A stretch of DNA of 44,688 nt from a virus. The stretch spans positions 1 through 44,688 of the IMG/VR virus record IMGVR_UViG_3300017727_002701. One strand, 5' to 3'. A program made the position numbers and the translations under genes. The notes under the pieces were generated by a model that ran no database searches, was not told where the DNA came from, and saw only the letters and a list, made by a program, of their open reading frames with translations. Positions 16,462-43,235 of the stretch are shown piece after piece (within the stretch, counting starts at the first letter, position 1; the number at the start of each line of letters is the position of its first letter).

Positions 16462-17059
16462 TAAAGTTGTAGTAAGTTGGTTCAACTTTCTCAGAGATAA
16501 TGTAGATAACCCAGAAGTAACTAAAAGATATTACGAATGCTTTTGGGAAAGTCAATTAAAAAGCAAACAAATAGTATTAGACTTAATTGATTCTATGGAC
16601 ATATATCAATGTTATATTTTTGGTGGATGGTATGGGTTGTTAGCACAGATACTTACAGATTCTAGGCGATCACATCACCCCATAGTATCTGTTGATATCG
16701 ATCCTAAGTGTGAAGTTGTAATTAATCGATACTTTAATTTTGATGGTGGTATTGTTGCTAACACAGGCGATATGGCAACATATAAGTATAAGATTCGTCC
16801 TGATCTAGTTATCAATACAAGTACAGAACACGTTGATCAAAAAACTTATGATGCTTGGTATGATAATATACCATTAGATACTGAGTATATTATACAAGGT
16901 AATAATCTAGTAATACCAGAACATATCAGACTTGCAGATGACATTAATCATTTTAAAGAAATAAATCGATGCACTAAAGTTATTGAGAAGATTGTTACAG
17001 ATTGTCCTGGACCAGATGGCATCTTTCAGAGATATACTATCAAGGGCGTTAAAGTATGA
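16448..17059 (+). CDS. Methyltransferase-like protein
   Basis: This encodes 203 residues from ATG 16448, overlapping the previous gene by 14 bases. CYIFGGWYGLLAQIL stands where the class I glycine-rich motif I is expected (GGWYG). IVSVDIDPKCEVVINRYF gives the acidic residue after strand 2, and LVINTSTEHVDQKTYDAWYDNI resembles motif post-III. The family is unusual but the Rossmann pattern is clear. Its last four bases overlap the first radical SAM gene, so it is probably part of that module. Confidence 0.6.
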   Translation: MHISDKVVVSWFNFLRDNVDNPEVTKRYYECFWESQLKSKQIVLDLIDSMDIYQCYIFGGWYGLLAQILTDSRRSHHPIVSVDIDPKCEVVINRYFNFDGGIVANTGDMATYKYKIRPDLVINTSTEHVDQKTYDAWYDNIPLDTEYIIQGNNLVIPEHIRLADDINHFKEINRCTKVIEKIVTDCPGPDGIFQRYTIKGVKV

Positions 17060-18384: not shown

Positions 18385-19762
18385 AAAAGGAACGAATGAA
18401 TATTGGATAGATGAATTAAAAGAAAAACGAATTAAGATAAATGATATAAGCCCTTCTTTTTGTTCTGCCAAATGGCTACAAACTACTCTGATGTTACAGA
18501 ATGGTTATAATCACTCATGTCACCATCCTTCACCCCATAAGATTCCCGTAGAAGAAGTTCTAGAGAATCCTGCCGCCCTGCATAATAGTCAATATAAGAA
18601 AACTCAAAGAGATAAGATGCTTTGTGGTGATAGACCTAAAGAATGTGACTATTGTTGGAAGATCGAAGACCTAGATAAAGAATACTTTTCTGATAGACAT
18701 TATAAAACTGCTGATTGGTGGGCATGGGATAAAATAGATGAGATAGCAAATAGTGATCCTTACGATGATGTATATCCTACTTATCTAGAAGTATCATTTA
18801 GTAATGCTTGTAATTTTGCCTGTGCATATTGCTCACCTGAAATATCATCTACTTGGATGCAAGACATTCAGAAAGACGGAATATATCCAGTTAAGTTTGG
18901 TTCACATGATTTGAATTATTTAAAAGAAGTTGGTAAGTTTCCATTCAAGAATAGTGAACCTAACCCATATGTTGATGCTTTTTGGAAATGGTTCCCTGAT
19001 GCATTCAAGCATCTAAAAGTATTTCGTATAACTGGTGGCGAACCTACAATGTCAAAAGATTTTTGGCGAACTGTTGATTATATTGTAGAACACCATCATG
19101 AAAATCCAGAACTTAAAATAGGAATCAATAGTAACTTAGGTACAGACCCGCGTCTGATTGAAAGACTTATTGCGTCTGTTATAAGACTTGAATCGCATGG
19201 CATTGAAGTCGAGATATTCACAAGTGCAGAAAGTACTGGTAATAAAGCGGAGTATGCCAGAGACGGTATTGTATATGATGAATGGATAGAAAACATAGAA
19301 CGTATGTTGATAGAAACCAACTGTCGAGTTGTTATAATGACAACGGTAAACATATTATCAATATCTACAATGCAAGATTTCGTTCAAGATATAATGGACT
19401 TACGTATCAAGTTTAATCAGAATTTGGCACATAATAGAATACCTTTAAGTGTAAACTACTTACGTTATCCACCACATTTACAATGTACTTTATTGTCTTC
19501 TGTTTATCGTGAAACAATGGCAAACAAACTAGAAGTATTTTGTGAGGGGTGGTTGAAGTATGATTCACCAGATAAATTTGCTAGACTCTACTTAGAAGAG
19601 TTTGATCAAATAAAACGATTGTGTGATTATCTGAGAACGGAGCCAGTCGCTGATAAATACAGAGAAGACTTTGCAAACTTTATACGTGAATATGATAGAC
19701 GTAGGGGAAAGAATTTTGAAGAAACTTTTCCTGAATTGATTACAGATATGGAGAAATGGTAA
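18377..19762 (+). CDS. Radical SAM protein 2 of the tandem array (type A)
   Basis: This encodes 461 residues. CNFACAYC gives Cys145, Cys149 and Cys152; TGGEPTMS is the GGEP motif. The N-terminal extra cysteines are Cys29, Cys48, Cys90 and Cys93 (FCSAKW, SCHHPSPHKIP, ECDYCWKIED), the same spacing as in proteins 1 and 3 of the array. SAESTGNKAEYARDGI corresponds to a conserved core segment, and RRGKNFEETFPEL closes the protein. It overlaps gene 1 by eight bases and the small 77-residue gene by seven, pointing to stoichiometric co-expression. Substrate unknown. Confidence 0.88.
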   Translation: MAEKGTNEYWIDELKEKRIKINDISPSFCSAKWLQTTLMLQNGYNHSCHHPSPHKIPVEEVLENPAALHNSQYKKTQRDKMLCGDRPKECDYCWKIEDLDKEYFSDRHYKTADWWAWDKIDEIANSDPYDDVYPTYLEVSFSNACNFACAYCSPEISSTWMQDIQKDGIYPVKFGSHDLNYLKEVGKFPFKNSEPNPYVDAFWKWFPDAFKHLKVFRITGGEPTMSKDFWRTVDYIVEHHHENPELKIGINSNLGTDPRLIERLIASVIRLESHGIEVEIFTSAESTGNKAEYARDGIVYDEWIENIERMLIETNCRVVIMTTVNILSISTMQDFVQDIMDLRIKFNQNLAHNRIPLSVNYLRYPPHLQCTLLSSVYRETMANKLEVFCEGWLKYDSPDKFARLYLEEFDQIKRLCDYLRTEPVADKYREDFANFIREYDRRRGKNFEETFPELITDMEKW

Positions 19763-19989
19763 TGGCAGTAAAATACATTCACGTTAATATGCATAAAATT
19801 CGTGCTAACAAAAAGCATGGAACAAATGAACCCGTCTTAACTGTAAAAGAAGGAAGAAAAAATACTTACGGGCATAGTGTAAAGATACATGGTCCCAGTG
19901 AGGTTATATATGGTGGTAATGATAAACCATTATTACCATGTGGTGCTAGAGTTGTTATTAAAACAGAAGCGGATGTTGACATTGACTAA
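19756..19989 (+). CDS. Conserved small phage protein inside the radical SAM array
   Basis: This encodes 77 residues from ATG 19756 (ATG 19762 is an alternative two codons on). Composition is basic and beta-rich: YIHVNMHKIRANKKHGTNEP, VKEGRKNTYGHSV, GPSEVIYGG, then PLLPCGARVVIKTE. I recall similar short proteins in other marine phages, always unassigned. Its start lies within the end of radical SAM 2 and its end overlaps radical SAM 3. Being small, basic and sandwiched between radical SAM genes, it is the natural candidate for a modified peptide substrate or partner, though it lacks a Gly-Gly leader or other RiPP hallmark. It could equally be unrelated. Confidence 0.7.
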   Translation: MVMAVKYIHVNMHKIRANKKHGTNEPVLTVKEGRKNTYGHSVKIHGPSEVIYGGNDKPLLPCGARVVIKTEADVDID

Positions 19990-21487
19990 AGATAATGATT
20001 TAATTAAATACCGTAAAGATATTCTTGATACAAAATCTAAAAGTTTTTGTGGTGCAAAATGGTATAATGCTACCACATGGCTAGGCAGTGGCACTACTGC
20101 ATCTTGCCATCACCCACCCGCTCACAAAATTCCATTAGAAGAGATTACAGTAGATCCGTCTGCTATTCATAATACAAAGCATAAGAAAGCCATGCGTAAA
20201 ATGATGCAACGTGGCGAAAGACCTAGAGAGTGTGAGTATTGCTGGAAAGTTGAAGACATGGAAACTGATGCTGTTAGTGACCGTGTATACAAGTCAATAA
20301 TCTATACTGAAGATGACTTGAAAAAAGCACATGAAATGGATTACAATGAAAGTGTTGATTTAAAAACATTTGAAATCTCTTTTGATCGTACTTGTCAATT
20401 GGCTTGTTCTTATTGTAACTCAAGTTTTAGTACTACTTGGGCAAAAGATATAACCAAAAAAGGTCCTTATCAAAATCTAGTATCTGATGGTGCTGGTGCA
20501 TTTCAACATGATGGTGCATGGGCAGAACCATATGGTAAAAGAGAAGAGAACCCATATGTAACTGCATTTTGGGAATGGTGGAATGATGGTCTATCTAAAA
20601 GTCTAGAAGAACTGCGTGTTACTGGTGGTGAGCCTTTAATGTCAGATCAAGTCTGGAAACTATTTGATTGGTTTGGTGAAAACAAAACAGATATGAGATT
20701 TGCTATTAATTCAAACTTGATGGCAAAAGATTCTCTTATTGATTCAATGATTGAGAAGACACAGAAGGTAGATCAGTTTCATCTTTATACTAGTTGTGAA
20801 GCAACCGGATTACAAGCAGATTACATTCGTGACGGTCTACATTATGAAACTTGGAAAAACAATGTTTACAAAATACTGACTCATGGTAAACTTAGTGGTT
20901 GTAATATTATGATGACCATTAATAGTTTATGCTTGTTTAGTATTACTGATTTTCTTGATGATGTATATGATATGAAAATTCATACTGGACTAAAGGCTCC
21001 TGTTGTTAGTTTGAACTTATTACGTTTTCCTAGTTTTCAGTCACCGCTTGCTTTACCAGATCATATTAAAGATCATTGTCGAAAGCAACTACAAGATTGG
21101 TGGGAAGAAAAGAAAGACTTAAAACTGTGGCATGAATTTGAGCGGGCTAGTATAGAACGTCTTATTGACTATCTTGTTACTGTTGACGCACCACACAGAC
21201 GTACAAGTGACAAGATGACATTGTGGAGAGACTTTAAAACTTTCTACGCTCAATATGATGAAAGAAGAGGGTTGTCATTATCTGTATTTCCTAAAATACT
21301 TACAGACTGGGTAGAAACTATTCCTACTACAGAAACTATTCCATTAAAAGAAATGATTGACGGAGACAGTACACGCCAATATGCTGATGATCCAGACTTA
21401 AAGAAAATTGCAGATGAGGAAGGTTGGGTTTTAAAACCAGATAGTAAAAACATTGATAAGCCTTTGGCATCATATGACGAAGAATGA
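19973..21487 (+). CDS. Radical SAM protein 3 of the tandem array (type A)
   Basis: This encodes 504 residues from ATG 19973. A longer in-frame reading from 19889 would run through most of the 77-residue gene and is disfavoured. CQLACSYC gives Cys141, Cys145 and Cys148; VTGGEPLMS is present. Extra N-terminal cysteines are Cys26, Cys45, Cys87 and Cys90 (FCGAKW, SCHHPPAHKIP, ECEYCWKVED), very close to protein 2, so the two are recent paralogues. It carries a C-terminal extension of about 60 acidic residues after RRGLSLSVFPKIL that the others lack. It overlaps the next gene by 14 bases. Confidence 0.87.
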   Translation: MLTLTKDNDLIKYRKDILDTKSKSFCGAKWYNATTWLGSGTTASCHHPPAHKIPLEEITVDPSAIHNTKHKKAMRKMMQRGERPRECEYCWKVEDMETDAVSDRVYKSIIYTEDDLKKAHEMDYNESVDLKTFEISFDRTCQLACSYCNSSFSTTWAKDITKKGPYQNLVSDGAGAFQHDGAWAEPYGKREENPYVTAFWEWWNDGLSKSLEELRVTGGEPLMSDQVWKLFDWFGENKTDMRFAINSNLMAKDSLIDSMIEKTQKVDQFHLYTSCEATGLQADYIRDGLHYETWKNNVYKILTHGKLSGCNIMMTINSLCLFSITDFLDDVYDMKIHTGLKAPVVSLNLLRFPSFQSPLALPDHIKDHCRKQLQDWWEEKKDLKLWHEFERASIERLIDYLVTVDAPHRRTSDKMTLWRDFKTFYAQYDERRGLSLSVFPKILTDWVETIPTTETIPLKEMIDGDSTRQYADDPDLKKIADEEGWVLKPDSKNIDKPLASYDEE

Positions 21488-22778
21488 GTTATCTCCATAT
21501 TTTTGTGTTGCACCCTGGACTCATACGTATGTAAGTCCTCAAGGTGAAAGGCGCTTGTGTTGTGCTAGTAGAGAAGACGCTTCTTTTCAAAAACAATATA
21601 TTGACTCTGGTGATAAAGCTGGTAAGTTCGAACCAGATACATTAAAAGAACATTGGAACAGCGAGTATATGAAAGATATACGTAAGCGTATACTTGCCGG
21701 TGAAAAGATATCCCAATGTGAGGTATGTAATAGCCAGTTATTAAATCTACATACATATAAACAGTACTTTACAGAAACATTGTTTCCACATAAAGTAGAA
21801 GATATAATTGCTAAAACTGAACCAGACGGTCATTATAATGATCTTCCTGTTTCTTATGATTACCGCATATCTAATCTATGTAACTTTAAGTGTAGAATGT
21901 GTGGGGACCAACTGTCTAGTAGTTGGGAAGCAGAAAATAAAAAGAACGGTCGCTTACAAGATCAACCTTGGTTAGAACCAGCAACTAGAAAAAATATAGA
22001 CACATTTCAAAAAGAAGTTTTAGAAGAAGAACTTCAAGCCGCAGTAGATGAAAGACGTATTGAAGAAATCTATTGGGTTGGTGGCGAACCTCTTATGTGG
22101 GAACGTCATTGGACTATATTAGAACAATTAGTTTACGATGGTCAAGCAAAAGATGTTACTCTTAGATACAACACAAATTTAAGTAGAGTATCTTATAAGG
22201 GTATAGAATTGTTTGATCTTCTTCCTAAATTTAAGCACGTTAATTTATGTGCGAGTATAGATGGAGTAGGAAAGGTTGGGGAATATATTAGAACCGGACT
22301 CAAATGGGAAGAGTGGTTGGAAAACTTCAAACGTGGTTTACCGCTTATTAATAATTTTGGTAATGATGCCATGGTCTTTGATGTTACTCTTACTACTCCA
22401 GGATTATTTGGTCTTAAAGAACTCTTTGATGTTGTTACTGAACTTAATGTAAAATCGTATTTCAAGTTTACTTTTGCATTTGATCCTAGTGTTGTTATGA
22501 GTCCTCTGTGTTTACCTAAAAGCATTTTGGAAGATACTGTACAAGAACTGCTAGAATATATCGAACCCAGAATGACAGATAAGACTCATGTTTATAAAAC
22601 ATCTCTTGTGAATCTATTGAATAGACAAACTTTTGAAGAGCAGTGGCCAGATACTTATAAACAAGGAATAAAAAGTGGCAAAGGACATATGGAGTATATT
22701 GATAGTATACGAAATGATGACCTAAATTTTAGAGATACACTTTCTAATGATGCAAAGATTTGGTGGGATTCTATATGA
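21474..22778 (+). CDS. Radical SAM protein 4 of the tandem array (type B N-terminal cysteines)
   Basis: This encodes 434 residues from ATG 21474. CNFKCRMC gives Cys136, Cys140 and Cys143; WVGGEPLMW is the GGEP motif. The N-terminus is of a second type: FCVAPWTHTYVSPQGERRLCC (Cys11, Cys29, Cys30) and CEVC (Cys82, Cys85), a SPASM-like signature seen in phage and environmental twitch-domain radical SAM proteins. SIDGVGKVGEYIRTGL matches the shared core segment. The usual C-terminal FPEL motif is weak here. It overlaps the previous gene and the following sulfotransferase-like gene. Confidence 0.87.
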   Translation: MTKNELSPYFCVAPWTHTYVSPQGERRLCCASREDASFQKQYIDSGDKAGKFEPDTLKEHWNSEYMKDIRKRILAGEKISQCEVCNSQLLNLHTYKQYFTETLFPHKVEDIIAKTEPDGHYNDLPVSYDYRISNLCNFKCRMCGDQLSSSWEAENKKNGRLQDQPWLEPATRKNIDTFQKEVLEEELQAAVDERRIEEIYWVGGEPLMWERHWTILEQLVYDGQAKDVTLRYNTNLSRVSYKGIELFDLLPKFKHVNLCASIDGVGKVGEYIRTGLKWEEWLENFKRGLPLINNFGNDAMVFDVTLTTPGLFGLKELFDVVTELNVKSYFKFTFAFDPSVVMSPLCLPKSILEDTVQELLEYIEPRMTDKTHVYKTSLVNLLNRQTFEEQWPDTYKQGIKSGKGHMEYIDSIRNDDLNFRDTLSNDAKIWWDSI

Positions 22779-23332
22779 TAGTTGTTATTGCAAATTATAG
22801 AACTGGTTCATCTACGCTGATTAAAAAGTTACATGGAGAAACTGGACTCAAGTTCTTTTCACAATATACGGGTGAATGGTGTCACGGCTTCAATGGTGGT
22901 TATAAAAAGCCAGATTCTGATATAAAATTATATAAAATAATGCCTGATAATATTGGCCATAATGAATCGTTATTTAAAAAAGAATATCTTGAATGTGCTG
23001 ATGATTTAATTTTTTGTTTAAGAAAAGACATAAGAGCCCAAGTTAATTCTATGATGTATTCTTGGGCTTTTGACTGGTGGCATCCAGGAAAAAAATTGCC
23101 AGATACAAGAAAAACACTTACCGATTATGATAATAAAGTGATAATAAGAACTATTATTAATAATCTTAAACTTCAAAAAATTTGGTATAAAGAGTTTGGT
23201 GGTAAAATTATGTTTCTTGAAGATAGAGAAGATAAACACGAAAAATATGATAAACATGATACACCAGATTTACTGGATATTCCAGACTATGATCTTGAAA
23301 TAGTAGACGCAGAGGAATATTTTAATGAGTAA
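22775..23332 (+). CDS. Sulfotransferase-like protein
   Basis: This encodes 185 residues from ATG 22775 (four-base overlap with radical SAM 4). IANYRTGSSTLIKKL at the N-terminus resembles the 5'-phosphosulfate-binding loop of PAPS-dependent sulfotransferases, and LIFCLRKDIRAQVNSMMYSW resembles the 3'-phosphate-binding segment (R...S). The C-terminus is acidic. It is short for a sulfotransferase (usually 250 or more), so it may be a minimal phage form or a P-loop relative. Its position between radical SAM genes suggests it acts on the same product, possibly a sugar hydroxyl. Confidence 0.6.
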   Translation: MIVVIANYRTGSSTLIKKLHGETGLKFFSQYTGEWCHGFNGGYKKPDSDIKLYKIMPDNIGHNESLFKKEYLECADDLIFCLRKDIRAQVNSMMYSWAFDWWHPGKKLPDTRKTLTDYDNKVIIRTIINNLKLQKIWYKEFGGKIMFLEDREDKHEKYDKHDTPDLLDIPDYDLEIVDAEEYFNE

Positions 23333-24518
23333 AACTTTTTGCCCTTTGCCATGGACACATTTAGCAACTCACCCACAAGGTGAATTGACACTTTGTTGTG
23401 AAGCAGATCATACACAAGGTATTTCTGAGTCATTTGATACAGATGAATTCAATCAAAGAAAGCCAAAAACACTACATACAACCAAATATGATTTTGACTT
23501 AATACAGAACAGTGATTCGTTTAGTAAAGTTAGAAAACAAATGCTTAATGGTGAAGAGCCTGTTCAGTGTACGAGATGTTTTGATTTAGAAAAAGTAGGA
23601 ATAAAATCAAAGAGACAGTATGAATCTGATAGATTAAACTTCAATGAATTTAGAGCGATAGAGATAACAAATAAAGACGGTACAATAAATGATGTCTCAT
23701 ATGAATTTGTTGAGTTACGTTTGGGTAATCACTGTAACTTAGCGTGTCGTTCTTGCAACCCATTGTCAACTAGCCGTTGGATAAAAGATTGGAATACTGT
23801 AAATCCAGATAACCCACTTTCTTATGATAAGAATCTTTTTAACTGGCCACTTGATACTGATTTTTGGGAAAAGTTGTTAGAACATTCTGATACTCTTAGA
23901 TATGTTTACATTAATGGAGGAGAACCACTTCTCATTGATAAACATAAACAGTTTTTAATTGATCTTGTAGAGTCTGGTAGATCGAAAGATATTACGTTAG
24001 TATATTCTACTAACTGCACAGTTATTAATCACACATATGAAGAAGTTTGGAAAAACTTTAAGCACGTACAACTTATGATATCAATCGATTGCTTAGAAGA
24101 AAGAAATTCTTTTATTAGACACCCATCAAAGTGGGATGTTATTACACAAACTTTAGAATGGATAAAAAAGGTATGTGAAGCAGATAATATTTCATATAAC
24201 ATAATGCAAACGGTATCTACATACAACATATTATACATGAAAGAGTTTCACGAATACTTTTCTTTTGCTCCATATATTTCTATGAACTTTGTTACTGATC
24301 CATCTTATCTTGATCCTGCATTGTTGCCACAAAAAATAAAAGATGCTGTTGTTGCTAAATTTCCTAATCAAACAGTAATTGATTACTTGACAAAAGGCAA
24401 AAGTTCTGATAATATGACAGAGTTTTATCAGAAGACCTTGAAAATGGATGAACTGAGAAACAATAACTTTAAACAAACTTTTCCAGAACTATACGATATG
24501 GTGTACCTTTATGTCTGA
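23325..24518 (+). CDS. Radical SAM protein 5 of the tandem array (type B)
   Basis: This encodes 397 residues. CNLACRSC gives Cys137, Cys141 and Cys144; YINGGEPLL is the GGEP motif. The N-terminal type B set is FCPLPWTHLATHPQGELTLCC (Cys6, Cys24, Cys25) plus CTRC (Cys82, Cys85). The C-terminus LRNNNFKQTFPELYDMVYLY keeps the shared FPE motif. It overlaps the sulfotransferase-like gene and radical SAM 6 by eight bases each. Substrate unknown. Confidence 0.88.
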   Translation: MSKTFCPLPWTHLATHPQGELTLCCEADHTQGISESFDTDEFNQRKPKTLHTTKYDFDLIQNSDSFSKVRKQMLNGEEPVQCTRCFDLEKVGIKSKRQYESDRLNFNEFRAIEITNKDGTINDVSYEFVELRLGNHCNLACRSCNPLSTSRWIKDWNTVNPDNPLSYDKNLFNWPLDTDFWEKLLEHSDTLRYVYINGGEPLLIDKHKQFLIDLVESGRSKDITLVYSTNCTVINHTYEEVWKNFKHVQLMISIDCLEERNSFIRHPSKWDVITQTLEWIKKVCEADNISYNIMQTVSTYNILYMKEFHEYFSFAPYISMNFVTDPSYLDPALLPQKIKDAVVAKFPNQTVIDYLTKGKSSDNMTEFYQKTLKMDELRNNNFKQTFPELYDMVYLYV

Positions 24519-25728
24519 TAAATTTTTCTGTGTAGCGCCATTCGTTCATCTATATGCTCATACGACCGGTGAAGTAAAGACTTGTTGTGTTGGCAATACT
24601 ACTTATGGTTCTTTAAAAGAAAAGACTATAGAAGAGATATGGCACAGTGATGAATATAAGACGTTGAGAAGAGATTTTATTGCGGGAGAGATTACACCTG
24701 AAATAGCAAAAAATTGTAGTACTTGTATCAATTTTGAAAACTCTAATATTCACTCTTTGAGAGAAGGTCTTAATGATGAATTCAAAGCATTTGCTGAAAT
24801 AGATGAAAATGCAGATGTAAATCTATTGTATATGGATTTTAGATTCAATAATTTTTGTAACTTCAAATGTCGTGGATGTTATCATGAATACAGTAGTTCG
24901 ATTCATAACGAAGATAAAGGTTCTTCACAAGACCTTATCTTTGCTGGTAAGACAGAAGAAGATTTGTTTGATCAAGTTTATCCTTATTTACCAGACGCAC
25001 AAAAGATTTATTTTGCTGGTGGTGAACCACTAATTCAATGGGAACATTGGAAAATATTAGACAGACTAGAAGAATTGAACCGCACTGATATGAAACTTGT
25101 ATATAATACAAATTTTAGTACCATGAAATATAAACAAAGACATATAACAGAATATTGGAAAAAGTTTAGTGATGTAAAACTCTTGTTAAGTTTAGATGGT
25201 ATGGAAAAAGGAGCAGAGTATTGGAGAAATGGTACTAAGTGGGATAAATTGGTAGAAAACATTAAGAAAGTTAAGAAAGAAACTCCGCACGTTTATATGG
25301 GAGTAACTTGTACTGTTGGATGGGCTAATCTGTATACTGCAATGGATTTTATAGATTATTGTGCTGATAGTGCGAATCCTAACGATGTAGATGATTTTAC
25401 ATTCTTAGATCCAGTAAGAATTAACATTAATGTGTTAGAACAACCAATACACTTCTCAACTCAAAGTGTTCCTGATTGGAAAAAAGAAGAACTTGAAAAA
25501 AGAATCAGAAAAACCTATGATAAATACATTAGCATGGGATTCGAAGATGATTCTTTGTTGGCTAGAAATCTTGTTGCCTTGATTAATTTTATGTGGGCAA
25601 AAGAAGGAGACTCTAGTAGAATAAAAGGGGGTTGGGACCAGATAGTAACGCGAAGAGATGAATTGAGAGATGAGAATTTCTTTGAGGCATTCCCAGAACA
25701 TATAAACATGAAAGAGATAATTGAATGA
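24511..25728 (+). CDS. Radical SAM protein 6 of the tandem array (type B)
   Basis: This encodes 405 residues. CNFKCRGC gives Cys116, Cys120 and Cys123; YFAGGEPLIQ follows. N-terminal FCVAPFVHLYAHTTGEVKTCC (Cys7, Cys25, Cys26) and CSTC (Cys69, Cys72) are type B. SLDGMEKGAEYWRNGTKW corresponds to the core segment, and LRDENFFEAFPEH closes it. The interval between the N-terminal cysteines and the core is shorter than in the type A members. It overlaps the next gene by four bases. Confidence 0.87.
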   Translation: MSDKFFCVAPFVHLYAHTTGEVKTCCVGNTTYGSLKEKTIEEIWHSDEYKTLRRDFIAGEITPEIAKNCSTCINFENSNIHSLREGLNDEFKAFAEIDENADVNLLYMDFRFNNFCNFKCRGCYHEYSSSIHNEDKGSSQDLIFAGKTEEDLFDQVYPYLPDAQKIYFAGGEPLIQWEHWKILDRLEELNRTDMKLVYNTNFSTMKYKQRHITEYWKKFSDVKLLLSLDGMEKGAEYWRNGTKWDKLVENIKKVKKETPHVYMGVTCTVGWANLYTAMDFIDYCADSANPNDVDDFTFLDPVRININVLEQPIHFSTQSVPDWKKEELEKRIRKTYDKYISMGFEDDSLLARNLVALINFMWAKEGDSSRIKGGWDQIVTRRDELRDENFFEAFPEHINMKEIIE

Positions 25729-26990
25729 GTGATGATGTAATTTTTCCTATTAAGACGGCAACTTCTTGTCAGTTTAAATGGTCTTGGAGTACAATATTTT
25801 TATCAAAGGGTACATCAACGAGTTGTCATAGATGTAACCACTGGGAATTTGATTTAAGTACCATTAAAGACTTTCATAATCTTCCTGGTAAAGTTGGTGA
25901 CAGAGAGAAGATGCTTGATGGCTTATGGCCAGGGAATGGTTGTGAGTATTGTAAAAAGATTGAAGATGCTGGTGGCTCTAGTGAGAGAACTGCTTGGATC
26001 AATAAGAAAGATTTGATACCACCAGAAATTGTTGCGGGCGATCTTAAAGCAACTAAAGTTACTCCACGTTTATTAGAAGTTTACTTTACCAACGTTTGTA
26101 ATCAAGCGTGTACATATTGTACTCCTCAGTTTAGTTCTGTTATCGAAGCAGAATATAAAAAGCATGGACCTATTGCCGCTAATCCTAGTTATATGATACA
26201 CAAAAGTGTGGATAACTATCCTCTATATCTACAAAAATTTTGGGAATGGATGGTAGAAAATTCTCATCATCTATATGAGTTTCAGACACTTGGTGGTGAG
26301 CCAATGTATCAAAAAGAATTTGATCAGTGTTTAGACTTCTTTGATAAACATCCTAATCCAAATCTTATTTGGAGAATTTTTAGTAACTTAAAACATGACG
26401 AAGAAAAATTTAAAAAGAAGATTCAAAAAGTAAATGATCTGATTGCCAAAAAGAAGATACGAGAGTTTCATATTGTTGCTAGTCAAGATTGTTGGGGACC
26501 TCAAGCAGAGTATGCCCGTTATGGAATGGACTTAAAAAATTGGGAAACAAATTTAAGATATTGTTTATCTCAAGGCGTACCAGTCAATATACATATGACG
26601 ATCAGTGCAATTACTGTACCTACTTTAGGTGATTTCATTGATAAGATTTATAGTTTGCGTCAAGAATATAAAGCTGGACTATGGATTAGTTCGAATACAA
26701 TTGTTAGACCAGAATGTTTAGATCCTTATATATTTGGCGATAAAATTGCTTTCTACTTAGAAGAAGCAATCTCTAAAATTACTGATCCCAATGATAAAGA
26801 ACAAAAAGAATGTTTAGAGGGCATTCTTAAAGGAATGAATACAAGCACTCTGAATGTACCACAAGTAATTGCATTTGAAAAATATTTAGATGCAATTGAC
26901 TTACGAAGAAATACAAACTGGAGAAAATTATATCCGGTTATAAGTGATATAGTGAAAGATGTTACGGAGAATATAATTGGCACTGGATAA
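25725..26990 (+). CDS. Radical SAM protein 7 of the tandem array (type A-like)
   Basis: This encodes 421 residues. CNQACTYC gives Cys125, Cys129 and Cys132; TLGGEPMYQ is the GGEP motif. N-terminal cysteines Cys15, Cys34, Cys37, Cys73 and Cys76 (SCQFKW, SCHRCNHW, CEYCKKIED) resemble type A. A 22-base DNA identity with radical SAM 1 (26492-26513 versus 17856-17877) encodes the WGPQAEY core segment and suggests recent common origin or exchange. The C-terminus has RRNTNWRKLYPVI instead of FPEL. It overlaps the next gene by 14 bases. Confidence 0.87.
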   Translation: MSDDVIFPIKTATSCQFKWSWSTIFLSKGTSTSCHRCNHWEFDLSTIKDFHNLPGKVGDREKMLDGLWPGNGCEYCKKIEDAGGSSERTAWINKKDLIPPEIVAGDLKATKVTPRLLEVYFTNVCNQACTYCTPQFSSVIEAEYKKHGPIAANPSYMIHKSVDNYPLYLQKFWEWMVENSHHLYEFQTLGGEPMYQKEFDQCLDFFDKHPNPNLIWRIFSNLKHDEEKFKKKIQKVNDLIAKKKIREFHIVASQDCWGPQAEYARYGMDLKNWETNLRYCLSQGVPVNIHMTISAITVPTLGDFIDKIYSLRQEYKAGLWISSNTIVRPECLDPYIFGDKIAFYLEEAISKITDPNDKEQKECLEGILKGMNTSTLNVPQVIAFEKYLDAIDLRRNTNWRKLYPVISDIVKDVTENIIGTG

Positions 26991-31749: not shown

Positions 31750-31863
31750 ATGAAAGCAATCTGGGACAAAATTAGGGCGCCTTATTTGAGATGGAAACTC
31801 AAAAGAGAATACAGAAAGCGTATTAAAGAACTACAAGAAAGAGATCCTTTTATATATGACTAA
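31750..31863 (+). CDS. Small basic peptide gene (37 residues)
   Basis: ATG 31750 follows GGAG at 31739-31742, inside the end of glycosyltransferase-like B, and the frame ends within the start of the carbamoyltransferase (ATG 31856). The product is dominated by Lys and Arg (WKLKREYRKRIKELQERD), so it would be a short amphipathic basic helix. Its good ribosome site and exact fit between two genes favour it being real. No function is recognised. Confidence 0.5.
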   Translation: MKAIWDKIRAPYLRWKLKREYRKRIKELQERDPFIYD

Positions 31864-33280
31864 TAGAGTTGAATGGGGTATTAGTGCAGGTACGCATGAT
31901 GCTTCTATTACTGTAATGCGTGGTGATGAAATAATATTTGCATCTCATTCCGAAAGATACAGTAGATTAAAGAACGACAAAGATTTAGATGATAGTCTTA
32001 TAACGTCGGCGCTCAAGTGGGGTAAACCAAGTATTGTTTACTGGTACGAAAATCCATTGTTAAAATGGACAAGAAAGAAATGGGCAAAACAACCTAGAGC
32101 GTGGTTAAGTCCTAAAAAATATTTAAAACAATATGGTATTACTGCTCCTATAAAATGGGGCAATCATCATAGAAGTCATATGGCAGCCGGATATTATACT
32201 AGACCATTTGGTGATTGTGCTACTCTTGTTATCGATGCTATAGGTGAGTGGACTACTACAAGCATTTGGAATAATGAACACCTAGTTTGGTCTGATAGTT
32301 ATCCTAAATCTTTTGGACTATTCTATTCTGCATTTACAAGTAGAATTGGACTAAAGCCAAACGAAGACGAATATATTCTTATGGGTATGGCAGCCTATGG
32401 TAATCCTAATAGATTTCATTCAGAAGTATTAGATGTATGGTATTCTGATGTCAACTTACATAAGGGTGTTTCTTGGTGGATGCCAGAACTTACAGAACAA
32501 GATTATTTCGATGTAGCCGCGGCAGTACAAGCAGTTTATGAATCTGAATTTAAGATGATGCTACAAAAAGTTAAAAGAATTACAAATCAAAACAAATTAG
32601 TGTTTATGGGTGGGTGCGCTTTAAACTGTCTTGCAAATAGACTTATACCAGATTACTTTAAAGATCACTGGATAATGCCTAATCCAGGAGACGCTGGATC
32701 ATCACTGGGTGCTATTCTTGCACATAAAAAGAAAGTTGTGCCATTTACTGTATACACTGGTCATACAATATATGGTAAATACCCCGTAGTAAACTTACTT
32801 AAAGAATTGAAAGAAACTGGTATTGCTGGTGTTGCACATGGTAAAGCAGAGTTTGGTCCCAGAGCATTGGGCAATAGAAGTTTACTCGCTGACCCAAGAG
32901 GCAAAGAAATGCAAGACAAAGTAAACAAGATTAAACAACGTCAAGAGTTTAGACCATTTGCTCCTATAGTAAAACAAGAAAATGCAAGCAGATGTTTTGA
33001 TGTAGATACTAGTTTTCATTCTCCTTATATGCAACACGTGGTCAAGTGTAAAGACCCTGATAAGTACCCCGCAATTGTGCATAAAGATGGAACTAGTAGA
33101 GTACAGACTGTCACTAAAAAATCTCATAGAGGACTATATGATCTATTGACAAGGTGGGAAAGAGATACTGGTTGTCCATTGCTCTTGAATACAAGTTTAA
33201 ATATAAAGGGTATGCCTATTGTAAATTCAAGACAAGACGCAATAGATTTTGAAACGGAATATGATGTACGAGTTTTTTAA
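31856..33280 (+). CDS. NodU/CmcH/TobZ-family carbamoyltransferase
   Basis: This encodes 474 residues. WGISAGTHDASITV is the N-terminal nucleotide-fold signature. GNHHRSHMAAGYY carries the metal-binding histidines (His104, His105, His108), FMGGCALNC is at about 250, and EFGPRALGNRS (about 331-341) and LLNTSLNIKG in the YrdC-like C-terminal domain complete the family. These enzymes use carbamoyl phosphate and ATP to O-carbamoylate sugars or antibiotics. The protein is shorter than TobZ (about 570), like other phage members. Flanked by sugar-pathway genes, it most likely carbamoylates a sugar hydroxyl. Confidence 0.9.
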   Translation: MTNRVEWGISAGTHDASITVMRGDEIIFASHSERYSRLKNDKDLDDSLITSALKWGKPSIVYWYENPLLKWTRKKWAKQPRAWLSPKKYLKQYGITAPIKWGNHHRSHMAAGYYTRPFGDCATLVIDAIGEWTTTSIWNNEHLVWSDSYPKSFGLFYSAFTSRIGLKPNEDEYILMGMAAYGNPNRFHSEVLDVWYSDVNLHKGVSWWMPELTEQDYFDVAAAVQAVYESEFKMMLQKVKRITNQNKLVFMGGCALNCLANRLIPDYFKDHWIMPNPGDAGSSLGAILAHKKKVVPFTVYTGHTIYGKYPVVNLLKELKETGIAGVAHGKAEFGPRALGNRSLLADPRGKEMQDKVNKIKQRQEFRPFAPIVKQENASRCFDVDTSFHSPYMQHVVKCKDPDKYPAIVHKDGTSRVQTVTKKSHRGLYDLLTRWERDTGCPLLLNTSLNIKGMPIVNSRQDAIDFETEYDVRVF

Positions 33281-37208: not shown

Positions 37209-37237
37209 TTGACATTCGGCTATTGTTTTGCTATAAT
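37209..37237 (+). promoter_or_regulatory. Sigma-70 type promoter, apparently giving a leaderless mRNA
   Basis: TTGACA 37209-37214, a 17-base spacer and TATAAT 37232-37237. The first in-frame ATG of the following exonuclease is at 37244, six bases after the -10 box, where transcription is expected to begin. An upstream TTG-like start would lie within the promoter. Confidence 0.8.
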
Positions 37238-37243
37238 AGTCTT

Positions 37244-37906
37244 ATGAAAATATTTAATCACTTAGATTTACCAGAACTTCCTAAACTTTCCAGAAAGAAT
37301 ATCGATGGAAAGCGTATGTATTGTACCGATAGTGGTGATAGATTCCCGTCTATCACTACTGTCCTTTCATGTCGTGGCAAGAAGGGCTTGTACGAATGGA
37401 GACAGCGTGTTGGGTCTGAACAAGCAGACAAGATAAGCAAGAAAGCATCCACACGTGGTACCAAAATTCACAAGATATGTGAAGACTATATCAACAACGA
37501 ACCTCTACCAGAACTGACCCTAGTCGAACAAGAGACTTGGAACACGTTTAGACCTGTTGTAGAGCGTATCGATAACATCCATCATGTAGAACCATTCATG
37601 TTTAGTAAGCATCTTGGCATTGCTGGTCAGTGCGATTGTATTGCAGAATTTGATGGTAAGTTGTCTATTATAGACTTCAAAACCTCTCGCAGGGTAAAAA
37701 CACATAAACAGATTTCAAGTTACTTTGCACAGTGTGCCGCATATGCGATCATGTATGAAGAGTTGACTGGTATTCCTATCAACAGAACTGTGATACTGAT
37801 GTCAGTAGATGATGAACAACCATCAATTTTTATTGAAAAACGTGATAACTATGTTGATTACTTACTAGAAAGCAAAAGAATGTTTGAAGCTGGTGAGATT
37901 GACTAA
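37244..37906 (+). CDS. PD-(D/E)XK exonuclease
   Basis: This encodes 220 residues from ATG 37244. SITTVLSCRGKKGLYEWR and ASTRGTKIHKICEDYI match the N-terminal helices, and GIAGQCDCIAEFDGKLSIIDFKTSRR carries the D...(D)xK catalytic set of Cas4/RecB-like PD-(D/E)XK nucleases. The N-terminal LPELPKLSRKNIDGKRMY resembles cyanophage T4-like exonucleases, supporting this start; ATG 37316 with a GGAAAG nearby is the alternative. Its promoter is at 37209 and the ATG is almost at the predicted transcript start. It probably acts in recombination or host-DNA degradation. Confidence 0.85.
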   Translation: MKIFNHLDLPELPKLSRKNIDGKRMYCTDSGDRFPSITTVLSCRGKKGLYEWRQRVGSEQADKISKKASTRGTKIHKICEDYINNEPLPELTLVEQETWNTFRPVVERIDNIHHVEPFMFSKHLGIAGQCDCIAEFDGKLSIIDFKTSRRVKTHKQISSYFAQCAAYAIMYEELTGIPINRTVILMSVDDEQPSIFIEKRDNYVDYLLESKRMFEAGEID

Positions 37907-37929
37907 TTTAAAAGTACTAAATACTACTA

Positions 37930-38195
37930 CAGGATTTGATGAAGCGTGAATAGGAAGTTTGGACTCGGGTGCGACTCCCGACACCTCCACCATAAGCACA
38001 TTTTGACGAGTGTTCTTATGTTGGGGGTGAGTTAGGTTCGACAGGCAACTGAAAACACGTGGAGAATCGGTGCGGAAGCTACCGTGAACGCAACAAAAAC
38101 CATAAATGCCAACGATGAGGTATTTGCACTAGCCGCATAAGCTAGTCGGGGTATGGGATCCACCTTGTAATCCAACGGTCCCACTTTTATAGCAA
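37930..38195 (+). ncRNA. ssrA: Circularly permuted (two-piece) tmRNA
   Basis: The acceptor piece comes first: a T-arm (GGACTCGGGTGCGACTCCCG) and CACCTCC-A-CCA ending at 37992 with an encoded CCA. A 30-base spacer follows. The coding piece starts GGGGGTG at 38023, pairing with CACCTCC as a 7-bp acceptor stem (one G-U), then GTTAGGTTCGAC typical of tmRNA 5' ends. The tag frame runs to TAA 38138-38140 and ends ANDEVFALAA; a GCA at 38090 would extend it by ATKTIN. The stop is enclosed in a CTAGC/GCTAG stem, and GGGATCC/GGTCCC (38155-38182) forms a final hairpin. The outer limits are approximate. It would rescue stalled ribosomes with host SmpB and tag proteins for host proteases. The segment order is that of alphaproteobacterial and some cyanobacterial tmRNAs. 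Confidence 0.92.
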
Positions 38196-38210
38196 GAAAG
38201 GATAAACTAT

Positions 38211-38777
38211 ATGCTAAAATCGACTTTGCTAACAATTAGCCCTATATTAGTCACATTGTTTTATGTAAATGAGACTCAAGTAGAAGAAGTAAGGGTATAC
38301 GATACTGTAGACCCAGTTAAGATTGAGGTTATAGTTCCACAAATTGATACAAAAGAAATTCATTGCATGGCATTGAACATATATCATGAAGCGAGAAATG
38401 AGTCTGTAGATGGACAAATCGCAGTTGCAAATGTTACAATGAATCGTGCAGAAGATTCAAGATTTCCTAGTACAATATGTGGAGTTGTTTACCAGGCTAA
38501 AATGAGTAGTTGGTGGAAAGAAAAAAGAAACAAAGAAGTACCTATTAGAAATGCTTGCCAATTTAGTTGGTATTGTGACGGTAAGAGTGATGAGGTTCAT
38601 GAGATTAATGTGTACAATAAAATCTATGTAATAGCTGAAGAAGTACTTATGGGATTACATAAAGACAACACACATGGTTCAACACACTATCATGCAAACT
38701 ATGTCAACCCATATTGGGCAAGTAGTCTACAAAGAGTTGCTTATGTAGATAATCATATATTTTATAGTGGATATTAA
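38211..38777 (+). CDS. SleB-type cell wall hydrolase (putative endolysin)
   Basis: This encodes 188 residues from ATG 38211 with AAGAAAGG upstream, right after the tmRNA. A hydrophobic N-terminus (LLTISPILVTLFYV) looks like a signal anchor. Then HCMALNIYHEARNE (catalytic Glu60), QIAVANVTMNR, PSTICGVVYQ and CQFSWYCDG match the Hydrolase_2/SleB peptidoglycan-hydrolase domain. The anchor suggests export without a holin. It is the likely lysis enzyme. Confidence 0.88.
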   Translation: MLKSTLLTISPILVTLFYVNETQVEEVRVYDTVDPVKIEVIVPQIDTKEIHCMALNIYHEARNESVDGQIAVANVTMNRAEDSRFPSTICGVVYQAKMSSWWKEKRNKEVPIRNACQFSWYCDGKSDEVHEINVYNKIYVIAEEVLMGLHKDNTHGSTHYHANYVNPYWASSLQRVAYVDNHIFYSGY

Positions 38778-39665
38778 ATGAACTTTATAGTTACTGGTGG
38801 CTGCGGATTTATAGGATCACATTTGGTAGAAGCCTTAGTGGTCACTGGTAACAATGTCATTGTCGTTGACGATCAACGATCTGGAAAATTTAAAATTAAA
38901 GATGATAATGTCCAGTATGTAAAACAAGAAGTTTGTAGTGTGGATATCAAAGGTAAATGTGATGGAATAATTCATTTAGCAAATACTCCAAGAATTCGTC
39001 TTGCAAACAAAAAACCACTTCTTGCATTACGCAATGGTATTGATCCCACAATTCATGTTGCTGAAATGGCAAGAAAATTCAATTGCCCCTTGTATTTTGC
39101 CTCAAGTTCTAGTACAATATACACTGATAGAACATCTAATCCTTATACACTTTCTAAAGCAGTGAGTGAAGATATTCTTAATATGTATCAAGAACTTTAT
39201 GGAGTTACTTCACATATAATGTATTTTTATAATGTGTATGGACCAAGAGAAGCAAATTATGGTGAACATAGTACGGTAATACGATCATTTAAAACTGCTG
39301 TACAAACAGGAAACCCACTACGAATTTTTGGTACAGGAAAGAAGACTAGAGATTTTACTCATGTATACGATGTAGTAGATGGTATGTTAAATTTATTAAT
39401 GATGGAGAAAAAACCAAAACAAACACATTTTGGTAGAGGTGATCCTTACTCCATAGAAGAAATTGCAGATGCATTTAAGCACCCTGTAGTATATGAGTTT
39501 GATAGAAAAGGAGAAGCACAAGATACCATATGTGAAAAACCTTTTATGAAATCAAACTATGATGTTATTGACTACATTAAATTTTGGAAAGAAAAGTTTA
39601 ATGAAGCAAAGAAATATTTTGAAGTTAAAAATAAATTACAGGAGATAGATAAACGCAATGCCTAA
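38778..39665 (+). CDS. NAD-dependent nucleotide-sugar epimerase/dehydratase
   Basis: This encodes 295 residues, starting one base after the lysin stop. MNFIVTGGCGFIGSHLVEAL is the extended SDR Rossmann motif, SSSSTIY and NPYTLSKA give the catalytic Ser/Tyr123/Lys127 set, and YFYNVYGPREANYG is the substrate-binding segment of GalE/RmlB-like enzymes. It probably makes a sugar for the glycosyltransferase-like proteins of this genome, although it lies in the replication region. It overlaps the gp33 gene by eight bases. Confidence 0.9.
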   Translation: MNFIVTGGCGFIGSHLVEALVVTGNNVIVVDDQRSGKFKIKDDNVQYVKQEVCSVDIKGKCDGIIHLANTPRIRLANKKPLLALRNGIDPTIHVAEMARKFNCPLYFASSSSTIYTDRTSNPYTLSKAVSEDILNMYQELYGVTSHIMYFYNVYGPREANYGEHSTVIRSFKTAVQTGNPLRIFGTGKKTRDFTHVYDVVDGMLNLLMMEKKPKQTHFGRGDPYSIEEIADAFKHPVVYEFDRKGEAQDTICEKPFMKSNYDVIDYIKFWKEKFNEAKKYFEVKNKLQEIDKRNA

Positions 39666-39939
39666 AGTAGTAGATGTAAATAGCCTTTCCATGTCAGATC
39701 CATATCTGATAACAAAAGAGTTCAAGTCCTCAAATGAGTTTTCACAGCACATTGAGCGACTGGCACACAACTCGGGTAGCTTTATTGATGCTATTGTTGA
39801 TTATTGTGGTGCTAAAGACATTGATGTGGAGAGTGTAAAGAAACTATTATCTCCTTCACTGAAAGAAAAAATTAAAGCAGAAGCAGAAGATTTAAACTTA
39901 CTAAAAGGTGGTAACAAGACATTTAAGTTACCTATTTAA
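39658..39939 (+). CDS. 33: Late transcription accessory protein gp33-like
   Basis: This encodes 93 residues. SGSFIDAIVDYCGAKDIDVES and EKIKAEAEDLNLLKGG...LPI match the central helix and C-terminal tail of cyanophage T4 gp33 proteins. The gene is followed directly by gp59 and then gp32, the T4 gene order. In T4, gp33 bridges RNA polymerase and the gp45 clamp for late promoters with sequence TATAAATA, which are found in this window. Identification is from recalled pattern and synteny. Confidence 0.78.
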   Translation: MPKVVDVNSLSMSDPYLITKEFKSSNEFSQHIERLAHNSGSFIDAIVDYCGAKDIDVESVKKLLSPSLKEKIKAEAEDLNLLKGGNKTFKLPI

Positions 39940-39940
39940 T

Positions 39941-40522
39941 ATGGTAGAACCCTTTGAAGTATATAAACTTTACCTTGCACTGAAGTTACATTTCACAAAG
40001 AAAGATTACGACATTACAAAGACTAAAGGTGCAGTCAAAGTAAAGCAAGAAACATTTCTCAAACGTAAAGACCTAACTGTTATAAGAAAGTTAGCCAGAG
40101 ACTATAGTAGAAGTGAGATCATAGACTTCTTAGTAGCCAACTTTGTTAGTGGTGAAAAATGGGGTGGGTTGTTTGATGTTGAAGCCAATAGAATATACAA
40201 GCAGTGGTCTATTAGAAAATCAAAGCGGGAATATACTTTTACACAAGACGTTGATGCCTTGTTATTGGAAATGGAAAAGAATAACATAAACAATCCTTTT
40301 TATGAAAAAAGTTCTAAACACCCCTTGACTTTTAGATTATATTTTGCTAAAATGATCACAATTGAAACTCTTGTAATATTAGATAAGATTTTCAATTTCG
40401 TAGATAGCGAAACGGATGATGTTTTTATCAGTGACTTATCATTGATAGTCAAAAAGTATCGACCGTTCGTTAAGGTTACAGACAAAATGAAGTCTGTAGC
40501 ACAGTCCTTAAAACTAGTATAA
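39941..40522 (+). CDS. 59: Loader of gp41 helicase, gp59-like
   Basis: This encodes 193 residues from ATG 39941, one base after the gp33 stop. FEVYKLYLALKLHF and KKDYDITKTKGAVKVKQETF match the T4 gp59 N-terminus (VYKLYLMIKQH, KYDVIKYN), and the C-terminal half has the TIETLVILDKIFNFVDSETD element similar to FETFILLDSFLN in T4. Slightly shorter than T4 gp59 (217). It loads the replicative helicase on gp32-coated DNA. Upstream of gp32, as in T4. Confidence 0.85.
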   Translation: MVEPFEVYKLYLALKLHFTKKDYDITKTKGAVKVKQETFLKRKDLTVIRKLARDYSRSEIIDFLVANFVSGEKWGGLFDVEANRIYKQWSIRKSKREYTFTQDVDALLLEMEKNNINNPFYEKSSKHPLTFRLYFAKMITIETLVILDKIFNFVDSETDDVFISDLSLIVKKYRPFVKVTDKMKSVAQSLKLV

Positions 40523-40752: not shown

Positions 40753-41670
40753 ATGTCTTTTAATTCACTTTCTGACCTCCGCAATTCCCGCGGTAATTTC
40801 AACTCTTTGATGAAAGAAGTTGAAAAAATGTCCACTACTACCACAACACAATCCCGTGATGATGGTCGTGAATGGAAACCCACTGTCGATCAAGCTGGTA
40901 ATGGTTATGCTGTTATCCGATTTTTGCCTGCACCAAAAGGAGAAGATTTTCCTTGGGCAAGAATTTGGAATCACGGCTTTCAAGGACCAACTGGCAAGTG
41001 GTACATCGAAAACTCTCTGACTACTCTTGGTCAACAAGATCCAGTGTCTGAGTTAAATACTGAACTTTGGAACAGTGGCGTAGACGCTGACAAAGAAACT
41101 GCACGTAAACAGAAACGTAGACTGGCTTACTATGCAAACATTGTGGTTGTAAAAGACCCCGGTAACCCTGCGAATGAAGGACAAGTATTCCTTTATAAGT
41201 TCGGTAAGAAAATCTTTGATAAGATTTCCGAAGCAATGAAACCAGAGTTTGAAGATGAGACTCCTCTTAACCCATTTGACTTCTGGGAAGGAGTAAACTT
41301 TAAATTGAAGATTCGTCAAGTTGAGGGTTACCGAAACTATGACAAGTCTGAGTTTGAAGCATCTCCAGTTCCAGTAGCAGATAACGATGAAGGTATCGAA
41401 GCTATCTGGGCAAAGCAGTATTCTCTTGCTGAGATTACTGATCCTAAAAACTTCAAATCATACGAAGCATTGCAAACTAAATTGCAACAAGTGCTTGGTG
41501 GTAAAGCTGTCCCTGCTCCAGCGGCAAGTGTGGCTGCCCAAACTGGTGATGTTGAAGATGATCTGTTCGTAAACAACAACAAAACACCCGATCCTGCCAC
41601 AACTGTGGAATCAGCATCTACTGATGATGATGCATTATCCTACTTTTCGAAGTTGGCTGATGAGGACTAA
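40753..41670 (+). CDS. 32: Single-strand DNA-binding protein gp32-like
   Basis: This encodes 305 residues. A basic N-terminus (SLSDLRNSRGNFNSLMKEVEK) is followed by the OB-fold core: YAVIRFLPAP, WNHGFQGPTGKWYIENSLTT, YYANIVVVKDPGNPANEGQVFLYKFGKKIFDKI, WEGVNFKLKIRQVEGYRNYDKSEF, then an Ala/Pro linker and an acidic C-tail (DDALSYFSKLADED). The order follows T4 gp32. His74 corresponds to the T4 zinc ligand, but the three zinc cysteines are absent and the protein has no cysteine at all. It coats single-stranded DNA in replication, with gp59 nearby. A terminator follows. Confidence 0.93.
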   Translation: MSFNSLSDLRNSRGNFNSLMKEVEKMSTTTTTQSRDDGREWKPTVDQAGNGYAVIRFLPAPKGEDFPWARIWNHGFQGPTGKWYIENSLTTLGQQDPVSELNTELWNSGVDADKETARKQKRRLAYYANIVVVKDPGNPANEGQVFLYKFGKKIFDKISEAMKPEFEDETPLNPFDFWEGVNFKLKIRQVEGYRNYDKSEFEASPVPVADNDEGIEAIWAKQYSLAEITDPKNFKSYEALQTKLQQVLGGKAVPAPAASVAAQTGDVEDDLFVNNNKTPDPATTVESASTDDDALSYFSKLADED

Positions 41671-41732: not shown

Positions 41733-43235
41733 ATGCACGGAATAATATTTGGTGGCTTGTTAGAAGATATGGGAATGGACGCCAGTATGGTAAGCATTCG
41801 TAGATCATCTGGCGCACATAAGATTGCTACCTTTCTACGTAAACATGATTATGATATTGAGGTTGTTGATTATATTCATCGATGGTCTTTAGATCAATTA
41901 AAAGAATTCACAACAAAGAAAGTTGATAGCGAAACTCTTTTCTTTGGCTTTAGTTCTACGTTTATGATTAGTACACCAGAATTGGTTGAGTTCGTTCATT
42001 GGCTCAAAGAAAAATATCCACACATCAAACAAGTTATCGGTAGTCAGAATCAAACAATGAAAGAACTACCCTGTGATTGGTATGTATATGGGTATGGTGA
42101 GTATGCTATATTGGCTCTTATAGACCATTTCAGAGGCGGACCAGAGCCGATACACGAAGGAAATCTTATAAATGCATACACGAACTACAAGGCATTTCCT
42201 AAAGAAGACCTTTCTGTTCAGTATGAAGAACGAGATTTCATTCATGAAAGAGAGATACTATTATTAGAAATGGCGAGAGGATGTAAGTTCAAATGTTCTT
42301 TCTGTAGTTTTCCTATTCTTGGTGTGAAAGATGACCATACAACTTCAGAACAATATTTTTATGATGAGATGTTAAGAAACTATGACAAATGGGGAACTAC
42401 CCACTACATGGTTCTAGATGAAACATTTAATGATTCAAGTGATAAGATTGCTAAGTACGCGGCTGCCTGTAGAAGACTTCCATTCAAACCTAAGATGACT
42501 GCTTATATTAGAGCAGACTTGATGGTATCCAGAATACAAGATTGGGATAACTTGATAGATATGGGAATCACTTCTCATTTTTATGGTGTTGAGTCTATGC
42601 ACTTGCCTTCAGCGAAATCAATTGGTAAAGGAATGAATAGTGGCAGAATACAAGATGGTCTATTAGCAGTAGATTCTTATTTCAGAAAGAATGCTGGCTT
42701 TTATAAAGGACACATATCTTTGATTGCTGGCTTACCACACGAAACTTTAGATACACTTAGAGAAACAAAAGACTGGTTAGAAAAGTATTGGCAACAAAAT
42801 AGTTTCCATTTAAATATATTAATGATCAAAGACTTAGATAAAAATGGTACATCATTGAATCATAATTCTGCTATGGATAAAGATTGGGCAAAATTTGGAT
42901 ATGAAAGGACTACTTTCCCAGAAGAGTGTGATATAGATTGGAGTAAAAGTTTCAATCCATACTTTAAAAATCTTTATGAGTATGTGGATAATTATGAGTA
43001 TTATTTAAAATGGAAAAATCCAAATCTAAGTTTGTATGATGTTACTAAATTTGCTGTTGAAGAATGGAGTCAAGCCAAACTTAAAAATGGTATTGATCCG
43101 TTTATGTATGATAAGTTCTTTATCGATCCTACTGTTAAGTGGAGCGACTTTGCTGAATTGAATCATTTAGAAAGAAGAACAGAGCATATTAATGCTCAAA
43201 TAGATTCTTATATAGAAAGAAAATTAGTCTCTTGA
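41733..43235 (+). CDS. B12-binding-type radical SAM protein
   Basis: This encodes 500 residues. The first 135 resemble a cobalamin-binding domain (SIRRSSGAHKIATFLRKHDYDIEVVDY, then GSQNQ), followed by EMARGCKFKCSFC with Cys184, Cys188 and Cys191 (CX3CX2C) and a TIM-barrel-like core (VLDETFND, FYGVESM, ISLIAGLPHETLDTL). No DxHxxG is apparent, so cobalamin binding is unconfirmed. This family methylates or rearranges unactivated carbons, or alters tRNA. The gene starts 14 bases after the gp32 terminator with no clear sigma-70 promoter, suggesting read-through or late expression. It overlaps the convergent minus gene by 12 bases. Confidence 0.85.
   Translation: MHGIIFGGLLEDMGMDASMVSIRRSSGAHKIATFLRKHDYDIEVVDYIHRWSLDQLKEFTTKKVDSETLFFGFSSTFMISTPELVEFVHWLKEKYPHIKQVIGSQNQTMKELPCDWYVYGYGEYAILALIDHFRGGPEPIHEGNLINAYTNYKAFPKEDLSVQYEERDFIHEREILLLEMARGCKFKCSFCSFPILGVKDDHTTSEQYFYDEMLRNYDKWGTTHYMVLDETFNDSSDKIAKYAAACRRLPFKPKMTAYIRADLMVSRIQDWDNLIDMGITSHFYGVESMHLPSAKSIGKGMNSGRIQDGLLAVDSYFRKNAGFYKGHISLIAGLPHETLDTLRETKDWLEKYWQQNSFHLNILMIKDLDKNGTSLNHNSAMDKDWAKFGYERTTFPEECDIDWSKSFNPYFKNLYEYVDNYEYYLKWKNPNLSLYDVTKFAVEEWSQAKLKNGIDPFMYDKFFIDPTVKWSDFAELNHLERRTEHINAQIDSYIERKLVS

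Follow-up and report, generated by a model that had tools for sequence, protein, structure and literature searches.

A 2022 publication described two-piece tmRNAs in marine T4-like phages, among them that of the OM43 phage Melnitz, which its authors assigned to the alpha type (PMC9004378). In that work, 53 of 133 unique phage tmRNA structures were two-piece, and 50 of these 53 were marine or aquatic (PMC9004378). Bacteriophages account for 79 tmRNA sequences in a 2025 database (PMC11915505). Here, we analyzed a viral DNA of 44,688 nucleotides (IMG/VR record IMGVR_UViG_3300017727_002701, positions 1 to 44,688; this whole stretch is termed the window). Its tmRNA joins this already known kind, the two-piece tmRNA of marine phages.

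Identification of the permuted tmRNA gene

ARAGORN called a single RNA gene in the 44,688 bases scanned, a permuted tmRNA (tmRNA*) at 37900-38231 with the tag ANDEVFALAA. In the Rfam search, RF04321 (tmRNA_permuted) matched 37933-38140 with 120.7 bits (E = 3.6e-23; cut-off 47 bits), and RF01850 (beta_tmRNA) matched 37904-38189 with 115.1 bits (E = 1.9e-34; cut-off 84 bits). No RNA family other than tmRNA reached its gathering score in the window. The first-pass annotation, made from the letters, had read a phage-encoded circularly permuted tmRNA here and had named these scans as the check; both the ARAGORN call and the Rfam scores bore it out. The parts of the gene are as follows.

37933-37992, + strand: acceptor piece, ending in the encoded CCA at 37990-37992 (ARAGORN, Rfam, fold; 5' end approximate)
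37933-37937, + strand: P2c 3' strand GATTT, partner 38064-38068 (alignment pairing)
37944-37948, + strand: P2b 3' strand GCGTG, partner 38056-38060 (fold, alignment pairing)
37957-37961, + strand: P2a 3' strand GTTTG, partner 38042-38046 (alignment pairing)
37965-37981, + strand: T-arm, stem TCGGG/CCCGA and loop TGCGACT (pairing in relatives)
37982-37992, + strand: acceptor 3' strand CACCTCC, discriminator A, and CCA (fold, relatives; U70 invariant)
37993-38022, + strand: intervening segment of 30 bases, hairpin-forming (fold)
38023-38029, + strand: acceptor 5' strand GGGGGTG (G1 to G7; G3 invariant), predicted mature 5' end of the coding piece (fold, relatives)
38023-38189, + strand: coding piece (ARAGORN, Rfam; 3' end approximate)
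38042-38046, + strand: P2a 5' strand CAGGC (alignment pairing)
38056-38060, + strand: P2b 5' strand CACGT (alignment pairing)
38064-38068, + strand: P2c 5' strand GAATC (alignment pairing)
38108-38140, + strand: tag reading frame ANDEVFALAA followed by TAA (ARAGORN, sequence)
38154-38183, + strand: 3' helix TGGGATC/GGTCCCA of the coding piece (sequence; modelled in beta_tmRNA)

The segments are arranged as acceptor piece with the encoded CCA, spacer, and coding piece with the tag, just as had been claimed, and the tag end given by ARAGORN was the same as that read beforehand. The acceptor stem GGGGGTG/CACCTCC, said to pair across the permutation, comprised 7 bp including the G3-U70 wobble. When the window pieces were folded as two strands without constraints, this stem, four T-stem pairs, and P2b formed; the earlier reading had staked itself on the folding of the acceptor stem and T-arm. 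Fold evidence for stems refers to the unconstrained fold, the constrained fold being left out for the stems that it imposed. Segment order, covariance score, pairing across the permutation, G3-U70, CCA, and an LAA-type tag end were all those of a permuted tmRNA, and window positions 37933-38189 are a circularly permuted two-piece tmRNA gene. At some IMG/VR loci, ARAGORN gave one-piece tmRNA calls.

Genomic context

Judging from its gene content, the source genome is a T4-like phage. PhoH, a PD-(D/E)XK exonuclease, a cell-wall hydrolase, an epimerase, gp33, gp59, and gp32 were found as T4-like neighbours; those flanking the tmRNA are listed below.

37223-37906, + strand: PD-(D/E)XK exonuclease, conserved upstream neighbour (PF12705, 2.2e-7; phrog_298, 2.9e-67)
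38211-38777, + strand: cell-wall hydrolase/endolysin (PF07486, 1.9e-25)
38778-39665, + strand: NAD-dependent epimerase, conserved neighbour (PF01370, 1.8e-33)
39658-39939, + strand: gp33 late-transcription coactivator (PF16805, 3.4e-21)
39908-40522, + strand: gp59 helicase loader (PF08993, 3e-10; phrog_269, 3.2e-47)
40753-41670, + strand: gp32 single-strand binding protein (PF08804, 3.7e-46)

All 31 loci that hold the three features, of which many are near copies, have the tmRNA between the exonuclease and gp33; 15 loci had the exonuclease and gp33 without a tmRNA. The same slot is occupied in the isolates Mosig (SAR11 phage), Melnitz (OM43 phage), and HTVC008M. The capsid protein of a 165-kb relative was nearest to those of Melnitz (69%), HTVC008M (67%), and Mosig (66.5%), and DNA similarity to isolate phages was limited to short stretches near the T-arm and acceptor. 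No plasmid match was found. Since tmRNAs are usually genes of bacteria, a misassembled contig could in principle account for the presence of one here; this explanation is barely credible, as isolate genomes and numerous independent contigs have the same phage slot and gene order.

A search of the window for a terminator between the tmRNA and the cell-wall hydrolase gene found none, and the hydrolase is probably on the same transcript as the tmRNA. No smpB was found in the 12 related records searched, some of which are fragments; hence, the tmRNA presumably uses the SmpB of its host.

Elsewhere in the window, several radical SAM proteins (17056-18384, 18377-19762, 24511-25728, and 41733-43235) and a Nol-like carbamoyltransferase (31856-33280) were observed. 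The genes of these two kinds (17056-26000, 31856-33280, and 41733-43235) are perhaps a modification or surface-sugar cluster. In Marine virus AG-345-O18, whose slot has no tmRNA, a manA RNA motif (184.7 bits) was located 5' of phoH (L210, 3120-3317).

Covariation and selection among relatives

Covariation was analyzed in 18 distinct sequences: the window, 15 IMG/VR relatives, Melnitz, and Mosig. The loci of the relatives were called independently by ARAGORN or Rfam. The acceptor stem and T-stem are fully paired (12 pairs) in 18/18 sequences, a percentage inflated by the script that picked the relatives, which set a minimum of 6 of 7 pairs for the acceptor stem and 4 of 5 for the T-stem; this filter alone cannot generate compensatory changes. 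Five of these pairs were altered on both sides; such cells numbered 33, compared with 8.4 in shuffles. Shifted pairings of the two stems failed in the 18 sequences. Acceptor pairs 4-6 varied with compensation, and the alanine identity pair G3-U70 was constant in all 18. Alanyl-tRNA synthetase requires this wobble pair.

The P2 helices were assessed in a plain MAFFT alignment of ten un-permuted sequences, which was not fitted to the structure. P2a was 100% paired with two pairs changed on both sides, P2c was 90% paired, and P2b received partial support, since MAFFT partly misregistered it across the relatives. Over the whole structure in these ten sequences, 12 pairs were changed on both sides against 6.2 in shuffles. 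The tag ANDEVFALAA was identical in contigs whose gp32 identity was as low as 76-80%.

A functionless element, either a decaying relic or a chance capture of a host ssrA, would fit the absence of the tmRNA from four contigs with nearly identical flanks (see below). This is very unlikely, because the compensatory changes, the invariant G3-U70, and the intact tags across diverged genomes show selection.

Lineage type and host

The window tmRNA scored 115.1 bits with the beta model, 84.1 with the alpha model (RF01849), and 33.5 with the cyano model of Rfam. The alpha score is above its cut-off, yet 31 bits under the beta score, and the cyano score is under its cut-off. From these model scores, the window tmRNA looks beta-type rather than alphaproteobacterial. 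The permuted form had earlier been taken to indicate an alphaproteobacterial, or less likely cyanobacterial, host; this was not supported, since beta outscores alpha and the cyano model misses its cut-off. Moreover, the tmRNA type is a poor guide to the host, as Melnitz carries an alpha-type tmRNA despite its non-alphaproteobacterial host. Two scans of genome contigs for a bacterial tmRNA with the same tag or T-arm/spacer found none; the lineage was therefore assigned from Rfam model scores instead of a tree against bacterial ssrA.

Alpha-type tmRNAs were present in the same genomic slot of other T4-like phages. In the gp32 tree, the beta-type clade of the window was nested in a supported group (99/99) that also contains clearly alpha-type phages, such as L118 with 128 bits for alpha against 60 for beta. 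The tmRNA types need several changes on this tree, although the number of switches is uncertain given the near-equal scores of some relatives with both models (e.g., L136, 74 against 69). The differences in type may have arisen through divergence in place rather than replacement.

Predicted promoter upstream of the tmRNA

A candidate promoter element precedes the acceptor piece.

37917-37923, + strand: CTAAATA, position-conserved degenerate T4-type late-promoter core (TATAAATA in many relatives)

Of 17 representatives, 13 have the T4 late-promoter core TAAATA ahead of the acceptor piece, about 40-53 bases 5' of a conserved GGAC; chance would give 2.0, and not one of 2000 dinucleotide shuffles equalled the observed count. 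ATAAATA was found in 10 of the 17 (0.8 expected). As the representatives are related, these counts are not independent events. Across the window, TATAAATA was not enriched (4 found, 6.5 expected); the motif is informative solely through its placement ahead of the tmRNA in the set of relatives. The CTAAATA of the window is weak on its own, and no good -35 consensus was found for it, so that late expression in this phage is read from its relatives.

TTGAC at a sigma-70-like distance was present in 7 of the 17 representatives, including Melnitz (0.02 expected), which makes early or constitutive expression possible; these seven phages seem to have an early-type promoter fused to a late-type one. 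The Melnitz authors described the promoter of its tmRNA as early and proposed that the tmRNA acts early, tagging host proteins for degradation so that their amino acids are recycled (PMC9004378). The seven TTGAC elements, spaced as a sigma-70 -35, and the naming of the Melnitz promoter speak for this proposal. However, these sites have the T4 late core TATAAATA or GATAAATA at their end, the Melnitz sequence called an early promoter itself contains TATAAATA, and the window lacks such a -35. In addition, tmRNA acts on any stalled ribosome, and selective tagging of host proteins needs an extra, unseen factor. We consider early tagging rather unlikely.

Presence and absence of the tmRNA cassette

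Within one clade, the tmRNA was present in contigs L155 and L157 and absent from L146, L147, L149, and L156, the absence being confirmed by Rfam in these four. The flanks of the contigs with and without it were nearly identical on both sides. The missing stretch of about 390 bases extends from just 3' of the promoter to just 5' of the ribosome-binding site of the hydrolase, and the promoter is retained in the four tmRNA-less contigs. The cassette is thus dispensable in this clade.

Such clean presence and absence in near-identical genomes would fit a trait useful in some hosts only, for example counter-defence, in which the phage tmRNA rescues ribosomes stalled when a host toxin or nuclease cuts mRNA during infection. 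We regard counter-defence as quite unlikely. A broader model can be offered tentatively: the slot that separates the late promoter from the lysis gene may be a docking site, where tmRNA cassettes are gained and lost as a unit and swapped between alpha and beta types under a late or dual sigma-70/late promoter, serving rescue or counter-defence in late infection rather than early degradation of host proteins.

Proposed function

The reading that we favour, and hold to be probable, is a functional phage-encoded two-piece tmRNA that rescues ribosomes mainly late in infection through the SmpB, AlaRS, and ClpXP of the host. Starting from the demonstrated structure, we infer its timing and benefit as follows. 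By analogy with known tmRNAs, the spacer at 37993-38022 is expected to be removed: the transcript would be cut at G1 (38023) and after the CCA (37992) with loss of these 30 bases, and the acceptor stem together with P2 would keep the two RNA pieces joined. Host AlaRS would charge the tmRNA via G3-U70, and host SmpB and EF-Tu would deliver it to stalled ribosomes. Translation would then resume on the tag ANDEVFALAA and terminate at its TAA, and the tagged chains would be degraded by host ClpXP through the LAA end. The late-type promoter on the 5' side and the cell-wall hydrolase on the 3' side suggest that the tmRNA would act chiefly late in infection and free ribosomes from broken phage messages.

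Comparison with known systems

Melnitz (MZ577097.1, 45984-46436) resembles the window in belonging to the T4-like Kyanoviridae, in carrying a permuted gene between the PD-(D/E)XK nuclease and gp33, and in having a late core upstream of the tmRNA. It differs in type and tag: the Melnitz tmRNA is alpha-scoring (106.7 bits against 25 for beta) with the tag ANDNYVPVDYALAA, whereas that of the window is beta-type with ANDEVFALAA. A glutamine riboswitch has been reported for Melnitz and Mosig and is not a required feature (PMC9004378); the window had no Rfam match to it at the gathering score anywhere along its length. SsrA of the Pelagibacter phage Mosig (MT647606.1) and that of HTVC008M share the slot and the permuted form with the window. 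Their tags are GEDNFALAA and ANFNEYALAA, respectively, both are alpha-type by Rfam score, and their hosts are SAR11. The permuted tmRNA of HTVC008M is unannotated and was located at KC465899.1 145161-145370 (L215, 1662-1871), between the exonuclease and gp33.

The betaproteobacterial permuted tmRNA, RF01850, is the best lineage-specific model for the window and scores above its cut-off; by comparison, the window tmRNA is a phage gene, matches P2 more weakly, and has no terminator hairpin at its end. The tmRNA of Alcaligenes phage vB_Af_QDWS595 is likewise permuted and scores 93.8 bits with beta_tmRNA, but this phage belongs to the Schitoviridae, and its tmRNA is located beside a tRNA array and carries the tag ANDNVYAAAA. 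That tmRNA (L214, 1438-1864) is unannotated, and the next gene is a tRNA-Stop with anticodon tta by ARAGORN, a possible ochre suppressor.

Other phage tmRNAs were noted in passing. Those at L175 67-396 and L181 4114-4434 have no encoded CCA (ACTC and ATTC) and carry the tags GTYNAPLALAA and GTYNTPLALAA, respectively. A permuted tmRNA call at L020 10039-10525 (- strand) has the odd tag EKKNDYKIIIGRPA, from which the usual LAA end is absent.

What this locus and its relatives contribute to the known kind is fourfold: an assignment to the beta type, an alanine determinant that never varies across the phages compared, a cassette present in some contigs and missing from close relatives, and a late-promoter core ahead of the gene. 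None of the four was found in the largely open-access literature searched. The host reading is corrected by these comparisons, as a permuted tmRNA here is no pointer to an alphaproteobacterium, and the covariation shows that phage two-piece tmRNAs keep the alanine-charging determinant. The natural pair with and without the cassette, together with the promoter prediction, makes the role of phage tmRNAs testable.
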